Positions 12,473 to 14,282 of a DNA stretch of 64,000 nucleotides are shown in pieces. Made by a program: the position numbers and the translations under genes. Every line of letters starts with the position of its first letter. Position 1 is the stretch's first letter. The DNA lies in assembly GCF_002356295.1 (NCBI RefSeq), contig NZ_AP018042.1, positions 4,124,361-4,188,360 on the forward strand, in the 5' to 3' direction. The notes beneath the pieces were generated by a model that saw only the letters and a list, made by a program, of their open reading frames with translations, made no database searches and had not been told where the DNA came from. This stretch comes from Labilibaculum antarcticum. GTDB lineage: Bacteria > Bacteroidota > Bacteroidia > Bacteroidales > Marinifilaceae.

Positions 12473-12506
12473 AAAAAAAAAGAGTCCTGTTCAAGAGGAC
12501 TCTTTT
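12473..12506 (-). terminator. Intrinsic terminator after asnA
   Basis: On the minus strand AGAGTCCT and AGGACTCT form an 8-bp stem with a 7-base loop, followed by a run of nine U. It lies 17 bases past the asnA stop. Confidence 0.9.
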
Positions 12507-12522
12507 GTAATTCGTATTGCTG

Positions 12523-13560
12523 TTATAGAAAGATAATGCCGGCTTTTTTACAGGCATCCCTTAATTCATCAGGCCAAATACTTGACTGCACTTCCCCAAT
12601 ATGAGCTTTTTGTAACAGGAACATACACAATCTTGATTGACCAATTCCACCGCCAATAGAATAAGGGAGTTTTCCTGCAAGAAGCTTTTTGTGGAACATA
12701 AGATCTTTTCTTTTTTCTTCGCCACAAATTTTTAATTGCAATTTTAATGCTTCTTCATCAACTCGAATTCCCATGGAAGAAATTTCAAATGATTGCTCAA
12801 GTATAGGATTCCAAAGTAAAATGTCACCATTCAAACCATGATATCCATTTGAGCTCGGTGTTGTCCAGTCATCATAGTCGGGAGCTCTGCCGTCATGAGG
12901 TTCTCCGTTTGCAAGCTCACCACCAATCCCGATAATAAATACAGCACCAAATTCTTTGCTTATTTTAGTTTCACGTTCTTTGGGTGTCAAATCAGGATAT
13001 TGCGCCAATAATTCCTCAGAATGAATGAATGTTATTTCTTCCGGAAGAATTGGCTGAAGAGGTGCATGATACTCGCTTAAAACATATTCTGTTCTTTTAA
13101 GCGAAGCATATATTTGCTTTACTGTTTGCTTCAGGAAATCTAACTTGCGGTCGGCTTTTGTTATTGATTTTTCCCAATCCCATTGATCTACATAAATGGA
13201 ATGAATATTAGTGAACTCTTCATCAGGACGAAGGGCATTCATGTCTGTGTATATCCCTTTGCCGGTAGGAATATCTAGTTCTCCCAACATAAAGCGTTTC
13301 CACTTTGCAAGAGAATGAACCACTTCCGCTGTCTGATCATCTAAGCCTTTAATTGGAAATGACACAGGGCGTTCAATACCATTCAAATCATCATTAAGTC
13401 CTGTTCCTTTCATTACAACCATAGGTGCTGTAACTCTTCGTAATTTTAATTCAGCAGCCAAATGCAATTGAAATTGATCTTTAATAAATTTAATGGCTTT
13501 TTCTGTTGCATCAAGATCCAATGTGCTTTGGTAATCTTTTGGGATAAATAAGTTTTTCAT
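12523..13560 (-). CDS. asnA: Aspartate--ammonia ligase (asparagine synthetase A)
   Basis: A 345-residue AsnA, making asparagine from aspartate, ammonia and ATP in the cytosol. It resembles class II tRNA synthetases. Diagnostic stretches include LRRVTAPMVVMKGTGLNDDL, FPIKGLDDQTAEVVHSLAKW, MNALRPDEEFTNIHSIYVDQ and the C-terminal PYSIGGGIGQSRLCMFLL. The longest frame begins at a GTG at 13671, but this adds 37 residues not expected in AsnA and crosses a terminator-like hairpin. The ATG at 13560 (MKNLFIPKDYQ) fits the family. A leader of about 320 bases upstream contains two asparagine-rich peptides and two terminators, so the gene is very likely controlled by asparagine-dependent attenuation. Confidence 0.95.
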   Translation of the reverse strand: MKNLFIPKDYQSTLDLDATEKAIKFIKDQFQLHLAAELKLRRVTAPMVVMKGTGLNDDLNGIERPVSFPIKGLDDQTAEVVHSLAKWKRFMLGELDIPTGKGIYTDMNALRPDEEFTNIHSIYVDQWDWEKSITKADRKLDFLKQTVKQIYASLKRTEYVLSEYHAPLQPILPEEITFIHSEELLAQYPDLTPKERETKISKEFGAVFIIGIGGELANGEPHDGRAPDYDDWTTPSSNGYHGLNGDILLWNPILEQSFEISSMGIRVDEEALKLQLKICGEEKRKDLMFHKKLLAGKLPYSIGGGIGQSRLCMFLLQKAHIGEVQSSIWPDELRDACKKAGIIFL

Positions 13561-13609: not shown

Positions 13610-13640
13610 AAAAAAAAACCTTTCTCGTTGATAAGAAGGG
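13610..13640 (-). terminator. Leader terminator 2 (attenuator) of asnA
   Basis: On the minus strand a stem of CCTTCTT with GAGAAAGG (one bulged A, one G-U pair) is followed by nine U, 50 bases before the asnA ATG. It is weaker than terminator 1. The 3' arm GAGAAAGG occurs again at 13662-13669, overlapping the stop of leader peptide 2. That copy could capture the 5' arm and prevent termination. Confidence 0.65.
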
Positions 13641-13667
13641 CTGATATATGTATAACAATATCCTTTC

Positions 13668-13721
13668 TCACCCAAGAGGAGAAATATTATTGATGTTATT
13701 ATTTTGAAATTGCTTGTTCAT
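13668..13721 (-). CDS. Asparagine-rich leader peptide 2 of asnA
   Basis: A 17-codon frame from ATG 13721 to TGA 13668 encodes MNKQFQNNNINNISPLG, with 6 Asn in 17 residues, five of them in the cluster NNNINN. It begins nine bases past the U-run of terminator 1, so it is transcribed only if that terminator is read through. Its last bases and stop overlap a GAGAAAGG copy that matches the 3' arm of terminator 2. The last Asn codon ends about 16 bases before that segment, as attenuation needs. No function other than sensing charged tRNA-Asn is likely. Confidence 0.75.
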   Translation of the reverse strand: MNKQFQNNNINNISPLG

Positions 13722-13729
13722 GTACAGGT

Positions 13730-13761
13730 AAAAAAAAAGCCTTCCCGAATTGGGAAGGCTT
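13730..13761 (-). terminator. Leader terminator 1 (attenuator) of asnA
   Basis: On the minus strand AAGCCTTCCC and GGGAAGGCTT form a perfect 10-bp stem with a 5-base loop, followed by a run of U. It lies in the untranslated leader of asnA, not at the end of any gene, about 25 bases after leader peptide 1. The 5' arm can instead pair with GGGAAGCTT at 13790-13798 inside leader peptide 1, giving an antiterminator with one bulged base. Confidence 0.85.
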
Positions 13762-13785
13762 GGTAATTGAATATTTTTATTTATT

Positions 13786-13863
13786 CTATAAGCTTCCCGA
13801 TTTCAATGAATAATTATTCATCAAATTATTGAAAAGATTATTGAAATTAAATTTTTGGTTCAT
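13786..13863 (-). CDS. Asparagine-rich leader peptide 1 of asnA
   Basis: A 25-codon frame from ATG 13863 to TAG 13786 begins MNQKFNFNNLFNNLMNNY. It has 8 Asn in 25 residues (positions 2, 6, 8, 9, 12, 13, 16 and 17), including three Asn pairs. It is downstream of a good promoter match and upstream of a perfect terminator. Codons 21-25 contain GGGAAGCTT, a near copy of the terminator 3' arm. A ribosome stalled on Asn codons would leave that segment free to form the antiterminator; one reaching the stop would cover it. This is the classic arrangement of amino-acid attenuation. Confidence 0.85.
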   Translation of the reverse strand: MNQKFNFNNLFNNLMNNYSLKSGSL

Positions 13864-13884: not shown

Positions 13885-13915
13885 CTAAAGTAGAAATTTT
13901 AATTGAATCAGCAAA
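13885..13915 (-). promoter_or_regulatory. Promoter of the asnA leader
   Basis: On the minus strand TTTG at 13915-13912, a 19-base spacer and TACTTTAG at 13892-13885 match the Bacteroidota -33/-7 pattern (TTTG, TAnnTTTG) with one mismatch. Transcription would begin near 13879, about 16 bases before leader peptide 1. Confidence 0.65.
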
Positions 13916-14090: not shown

Positions 14091-14282
14091 ATGCCTACAG
14101 GTACAGTAAAATTTTTTAACGAATCCAAGGGATTCGGATTCATTAAGAACAGCGAAACAGGAGAAGATCTCTTTGTTCATGTAACAGGATTAATTGACAA
14201 AATTAATGAGGATGACGAAGTAACTTTTGACCTTGTTGAAGGAAAAAAAGGAATGAACGCGGTTAATGTAAAAATTAACTAA
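14091..14282 (+). CDS. Cold-shock domain protein
   Basis: A 63-residue single cold-shock domain, a cytosolic RNA/ssDNA-binding protein. RNP1 is KGFGFIKN (about residues 14-21) and RNP2 is DLFVHVTG. Length and start (MPTGTVKFFNESKGFGF) are those of the CspA family. It is transcribed away from asnA; about 227 bases separate its ATG from leader peptide 1. It has its own terminator, so it is probably monocistronic. Confidence 0.95.
   Translation: MPTGTVKFFNESKGFGFIKNSETGEDLFVHVTGLIDKINEDDEVTFDLVEGKKGMNAVNVKIN

Follow-up and report, generated by a model that had tools for sequence, protein, structure and literature searches.

The gene asnA of Labilibaculum antarcticum is preceded by a short, asparagine-rich reading frame and a terminator, which raises the question whether ribosomes translating such a frame decide on the transcription of the gene. 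A single leader-peptide attenuator had been described in the original prediction for this locus. The window analysed here, i.e., the whole stretch of 64,000 nucleotides of contig NZ_AP018042.1, was compared with related genomes. Leader-peptide attenuation was supported, but the single unit was incomplete: asnA is very probably under the control of two ribosome-read transcription attenuators in series. This reading is based on the anatomy, conservation, covariation and folding logic of the two units, all established on the sequence.

Anatomy of the asnA upstream region

The downstream gene had been predicted to make asparagine, and its identity as asnA is borne out by a TIGR00669 score of 430.6 bits, the cut-off for an asnA call being 292.8 bits. 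The start is probably the ATG at 13560; the reading frame is open to 13671. The upstream neighbour, a cold-shock gene, is located on the plus strand with its start at 14091 and is directed away from asnA, so the minus-strand terminators (Table 1) do not serve it, and a role of these terminators for an upstream gene was ruled out.

Table 1. Features of the asnA locus and its two leader units in the window
Feature	Position	Strand	Support
Promoter-like site, TTTG-N19-TACTTTAG	13885..13915	-	9/10 matches to consensus
Leader peptide 1, 25 residues, 8 Asn	13786..13863	-	ORF; conserved at family loci
Possible 1:2 hairpin hiding unit 1 segment 2	13788..13841	-	free full-length fold
Segment 2 of unit 1 (GGGAAGCTT), antiterminator arm	13790..13798	-	pairs with terminator 5' arm
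Terminator 1 (segments 3 + 4) with T run	13730..13761	-	stem -17.0 kcal/mol
Leader peptide 2, 17 residues, 6 Asn (MNKQFQNNNINNISPLG)	13668..13721	-	ORF; conserved at family loci
Segment 2 of unit 2 (TGAGAAAGG), overlaps leader 2 stop codon	13662..13670	-	pairs with terminator 2 5' arm
Terminator 2 with T run (to 13610), weak stem here	13610..13642	-	stem 13617-13642
asnA, aspartate-ammonia ligase	12523..13560	-	TIGR00669 430.6 bits, PF03590 345 bits, ORF
Terminator-like site 3' of asnA	12478..12506	-	11 pairs, T run

Unit 1 was located as predicted, with the promoter match, the 25-residue frame of eight Asn codons and three NN pairs, the antiterminator segment in the last codons of this frame, 14 bases between Asn codon 17 and this segment, and the perfect 10-bp terminator stem. 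Promoters of the Bacteroidota type follow the consensus TTTG-N19-TAnnTTTG. The candidate promoter has TTTG at 13912-13915 and, after 19 bases, TACTTTAG at 13885-13892, one mismatch from the consensus. Such promoters, scoring 9 or more out of 10, preceded the first leader at 35 of the 45 attenuator loci described below versus 80 of 2250 shuffled sequences. Leader 1 reads MNQKFNFNNLFNNLMNNYSLKSGSL up to its stop codon, with NN at codons 8-9, 12-13 and 16-17. The stem of terminator 1, AAGCCTTCCC-AATTC-GGGAAGGCTT, spans 13737-13761 and is followed by seven T. Segment 2 pairs with the 5' arm of this terminator at -12.2 kcal/mol (p 0.01 against shuffles). The upstream pairing of segment 2 exceeds all but one of 40 shuffles, and the free full-length RNA of unit 1 folds into a 1:2 hairpin which hides the segment.

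A second unit (13610-13721, minus strand), overlooked in the original prediction, is located between terminator 1 and asnA, and the sequence comparison supports the presence of two putative leader-peptide attenuators in series ahead of the gene. Leader 2 starts with the ATG at 13721, reads MNKQFQNNNINNISPLG and ends with TGA at 13668-13670. TGAGAAAGG begins with this stop codon and contains GAGAAAGG, a repeat of the 3' arm of terminator 2; the pairing of segment 2 with the 5' arm of terminator 2 is better than in shuffles (p 0.015). Terminator 2 of L. antarcticum has one mismatch and two wobbles and a stability of -6.9 kcal/mol, versus -10.2 to -17.9 kcal/mol in folds of 18 second terminators from other family loci. 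With a terminator so much weaker than in these relatives, unit 2 may be decaying in the window genome.

Conservation in the family and spread beyond it

The gene asnA was present in 29 of 56 genomes of the family, at 28 loci above the cut-off. An Asn leader followed by a terminator was found at 26 of the 28 family loci scanned, and the tandem of both leaders at 20 of the 28, the window included in both counts; L006, whose leaders are the same as those of L005, is part of the locus counts and was left out of the alignments and the hairpin test. The scan detected no Asn leader with terminator at L010 and L013. Five family loci (L025-L029) have a single unit with a different leader, e.g., MALFNNNNINLNNNCNDRLLQRGGYY, and at L018 leader 2 is out of frame. 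Conservation of the Asn codons in relatives had been named as a test of the prediction, which it passed: in the columns with an Asn majority, Asn occupied 162 of 195 cells in 20 leader-1 sequences and 136 of 165 cells in 19 leader-2 sequences. Both AAT and AAC occurred in five of ten such columns of leader 1 and in seven of nine of leader 2; the interchange of the two codons means that the residue rather than the exact bases is kept. The same scan yielded no Asn leader with terminator at the asnB-type genes (0/30) or the asnS genes (0/30) of the family; the second asnB of the window genome (G000:C1:5663977) lies outside the 30 asnB loci scanned.

The complete scan set comprised 173 asnA loci of 60 families, i.e., 28 loci of the family, 129 more of the order and 16 from the whole class. 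The order was sampled through 158 genomes with asnA, with 30 loci from the search and 100 further regions; duplicates (L001, L303, L309, L312, L316, L317, L323) were excluded, and a gene fragment (L030) was not counted. The scan flagged 46 loci in 14 families. One of these (L218) was dropped as a likely chance case on account of its distant terminator, leaving 45 loci in 13 families and in more than one order. Outside the family, an Asn leader with terminator was thus present at 19 of 145 loci and missing at 126, and outside the order L300, L304, L313 and L314 carried the element, among 11 loci. Shuffled sequences in which the dinucleotides were kept gave an Asn leader with terminator in 0 of 560 cases for the family regions and in 7 of 2900 cases for the others. 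Tandem pairs were observed at 27 loci in six families, and in none of 3460 shuffles. Unit 2 of the window did not pass the terminator scan and was added by hand to this count and to the pairing test, so that 26 of the 27 tandem loci depend on the scan alone. Among 80 named asnA loci, mostly from Bacteroidota metagenome genomes and four of them with less than 500 bases upstream, the scan had no match. Judged from these sequences, the predicted element of Asn leader and terminator is real but patchy; across families, the leaders have little in common besides their Asn runs.

Alternative structures and the proposed switch

The stretch behind the last Asn codon paired with the 5' arm of the terminator better than its own shuffles (p < 0.05) in 61 of 65 units. 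This test took 65 of 66 units; the downstream unit of L231 was left out, as the stretch was too short, for which reason it also scored +2.1 in the swap test. The four failures were unit 1 of L009, unit 2 of L020, unit 2 of L021 and L224; the last has a divergent terminator arm and a matching leader end (TTGTATCG), with a shuffle p of only 0.07. The paired stretch begins 3 to 16 bases past the last Asn codon, in 55 of the 65 units 8 to 13 bases. Measured from the last base of the stop codon, it stops short in type 1 and extends 4 to 16 bases further in type 2. At L138, L145, L195 and L219 it stops 14 to 20 bases short of this base, and the masking by a ribosome on the stop codon would be partial. 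In a leader-peptide attenuator, a 1:2 hairpin would bring back termination if the leader is not translated; a 1:2 pairing above that of shuffles was obtained for 22 of 43 type-1 units and 2 of 27 type-2 units.

Within the family (alignments A1 and A2) the stems show little variation, and in one genus they are displaced; covariation was therefore assessed by a swap of partners across loci rather than by counting pairs within the family. For hand-picked representatives, own pairs had a mean of -13.95 kcal/mol versus -10.81 kcal/mol for swapped pairs in type 1 (26 units) and -13.10 versus -8.60 kcal/mol in type 2 (15 units), and none of 10,000 permutations was as low as the own pairs in either type. 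Without the family, p was 1e-4 for 16 type-1 units and 1e-3 for 8 type-2 units. The two alternative stems, whose persistence in relatives was the other test named with the prediction, are thus maintained by covariation across divergent loci. In unit 1 of the window the motif is so widely shared that many foreign partners do as well as its own, which takes only rank 16 of 26; the covariation accordingly rests on the divergent loci.

Stalling at Asn codons had been predicted to free segment 2, and a ribosome on the stop codon to hide it. Both were reproduced in constrained folds, i.e., in models in which a ribosome footprint of roughly chosen size was blocked. When the RNA was truncated in the terminator loop, a ribosome placed on any of the Asn codons tested (9, 13 and 17 in unit 1; 8, 9 and 12 in unit 2) allowed the antiterminator to form, and a ribosome on the stop codon abolished it in both units. 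The antiterminator formed also with no ribosome; as free RNA takes this shape as long as the 3' arm is missing, an untranslated leader might read through. When the RNA of unit 1 was folded in its finished form, the terminator won in every state tested, which requires the choice to be kinetic and made before segment 4 exists. The finished RNA of unit 2 kept the antiterminator with the ribosome on Asn codon 12 and formed the terminator with the ribosome on the stop codon. The hallmarks of an attenuator were found together: a short ORF rich in cognate codons, an intrinsic terminator before the gene and a computed antiterminator that excludes it.

We propose that transcription begins just upstream of leader 1, presumably at the promoter-like site, and that both leaders are translated. 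With charged Asn-tRNA at hand, the ribosome would advance to the stop codon and cover segment 2, segments 3 and 4 would pair, and transcription would end at the predicted terminator. If charged Asn-tRNA is scarce, the ribosome would stall on an Asn codon and segment 2 would stay free to pair with segment 3 before the synthesis of segment 4, allowing transcription to continue. The read-through transcript would then meet unit 2 with its own Asn leader and the same logic, and asnA would be reached only if this unit is passed too; the two decisions would probably multiply. The net effect would be a switch that turns on asnA when asparagine runs short.

A reduced version of this scheme, in which only unit 1 regulates asnA in L. 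antarcticum and unit 2 is the decaying relic of a tandem still working in relatives, is a possible though rather unlikely reading. The low stability of terminator 2 in comparison to its 18 counterparts fits a relic, and the out-of-frame leader 2 of L018 indicates that unit 2 can be lost; however, the window retains leader 2 with its Asn run as well as segment 2 and the T run, and the antiterminator still pairs better than shuffles. Other explanations take the reading frames out of the regulation. A structured leader with terminators may be controlled by a riboswitch, a T-box or a binding protein, the ORFs being incidental. The hallmarks of a T-box are a Stem I with a specifier and the T-box sequence. 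In a search with 391 bases, the Rfam model Phe_leader (RF01859) matched unit 1 over its whole length (13731-13842, minus strand, 36.8 bits, E 1.1e-4), below its gathering score of 55. Throughout the window, no Rfam family reached its gathering score, and the hits for the leader stretch, followed up to E 5, included no T-box; a T-box or riboswitch was rejected on these results. The conservation of the Asn codons with synonymous change also speaks against incidental ORFs, which makes this kind of control very improbable.

Slightly less probable still are functional small Asn-rich proteins encoded by the frames beside ordinary terminators. The peptide sequence of leader 1 is recognisable through one family, but the likeness across families hardly goes beyond Asn runs, and the leader ends covary with the terminator arms. 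AAT triplets are frequent in AT-rich DNA, and Asn-rich frames may arise by chance near unrelated terminators; the shuffle counts (0/560 and 7/2900 versus 26/28 and 19/145 loci) and the covariation of the arms contradict a chance origin, which was rejected and is given hardly any weight. Two attenuators in series remain the preferred reading.

Leaders before other genes and comparison with known attenuators

In the same genome, two successive leaders rich in Ile, Val and Leu, each with a terminator, precede ilvD (L325, upstream of ilvD at G000:C1:1025244-1027016, minus strand), therefore tandem leaders are not peculiar to asnA here. Two leaders were found at 23 of the 30 ilvD loci of the family, one at four and none at three, a count made with no shuffle control. 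A leader with five His (MTFTATHHHHHYTYQSVS) lies before hisG (L324), where the ORF and a terminator-like stem were read by eye, and a leader with three Trp (MINKYWWWHSYELSKPEQR) and a terminator lies before a chorismate-binding gene (L327); the latter is likely a trp attenuator, and leaders of the his and ilv type are apparent in the window genome. The two leaders of the asnA tandems differ in a proline after the last Asn cluster, present in the downstream leader at 26 of 27 tandem loci and in the upstream leader at 5 of 27. It was counted by leader position, as the rule separating type 1 and type 2 partly uses proline. This proline could provide C-rich codons pairing with segment 2, or cause a slow release at proline-stop. 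The chances are about even that two non-equivalent serial attenuators are a standing control device of Bacteroidia, present before asnA and, with Ile/Val/Leu leaders, before ilvD, and work as an AND gate, with lower basal expression and a sharper response; the proline of the downstream leader may then keep the terminating ribosome at the stop codon, on top of segment 2.

If the proposed control holds true, asparagine joins the amino acids sensed by leader peptides, two such sensors are wired serially on one gene and kept across families, and ribosomes trail the RNA polymerase in these Bacteroidota closely enough for a ribosome-timed termination. Relatives with two units, one or none present a natural series for comparison.

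A literature search covering few subscription papers revealed neither an Asn leader peptide nor a biosynthetic gene with tandem leader-peptide attenuators; the accessible parts of PMC8632094 and PMC1262725 hold no asparagine case. Leader-like short ORFs have been noted in Bacteroides thetaiotaomicron, and Bacteroidetes have been named for leader-gene distances, according to the accessible text of the respective papers (PMC7366714; PMC4833913). In the available part of a study on Flavobacterium psychrophilum, leader-peptide attenuation is claimed before amino-acid operons, and 5' elements upstream of pheA and hisG are named among those conserved in other genera (PMC9723704); the main text, as far as available, contains no asparagine case. 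The original prediction had stated that no Asn leader attenuator was known in Bacteroidota. This needs to be narrowed to the amino acid, of which no case was found in the literature searched: the mechanism had already been claimed in the flavobacterium (PMC9723704), and apparent his, trp and ilv leaders are present in the genome.

Among these systems, the F. psychrophilum case, as far as its description is available, resembles asnA in the phylum and in attenuation before amino-acid biosynthesis operons. The ilvD tandem of the same genome and family shares the two leaders, each with a terminator, on one biosynthetic gene; it differs in its Ile/Val/Leu leaders, and the literature search yielded no printed description of it. 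Phe_leader differs from unit 1 in the codons, which are Asn and not Phe in the latter, and the resemblance is likely one of shared shape. Leader-peptide transcription attenuators of the trp/his type are known from Proteobacteria and Actinobacteria (cf. PMC2965389; PMC1262725). Like these, the asnA units have codons for the product amino acid in a short ORF, an intrinsic terminator before the gene and a competing antiterminator arm that would be covered by a ribosome on the stop codon. Unlike these, they use Asn as amino acid, form two complete units in series, place segment 2 within the final codons (leader 1) or over the stop codon (leader 2), and are preceded by a promoter of the Bacteroidota type; a 1:2 hairpin is unsupported for unit 2. 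The finding on asnA is real, and the mechanism is very probably right; the class of mechanism is known, and the apparent novelty lies in Asn as the amino acid, in the tandem arrangement and in how widely this occurs.
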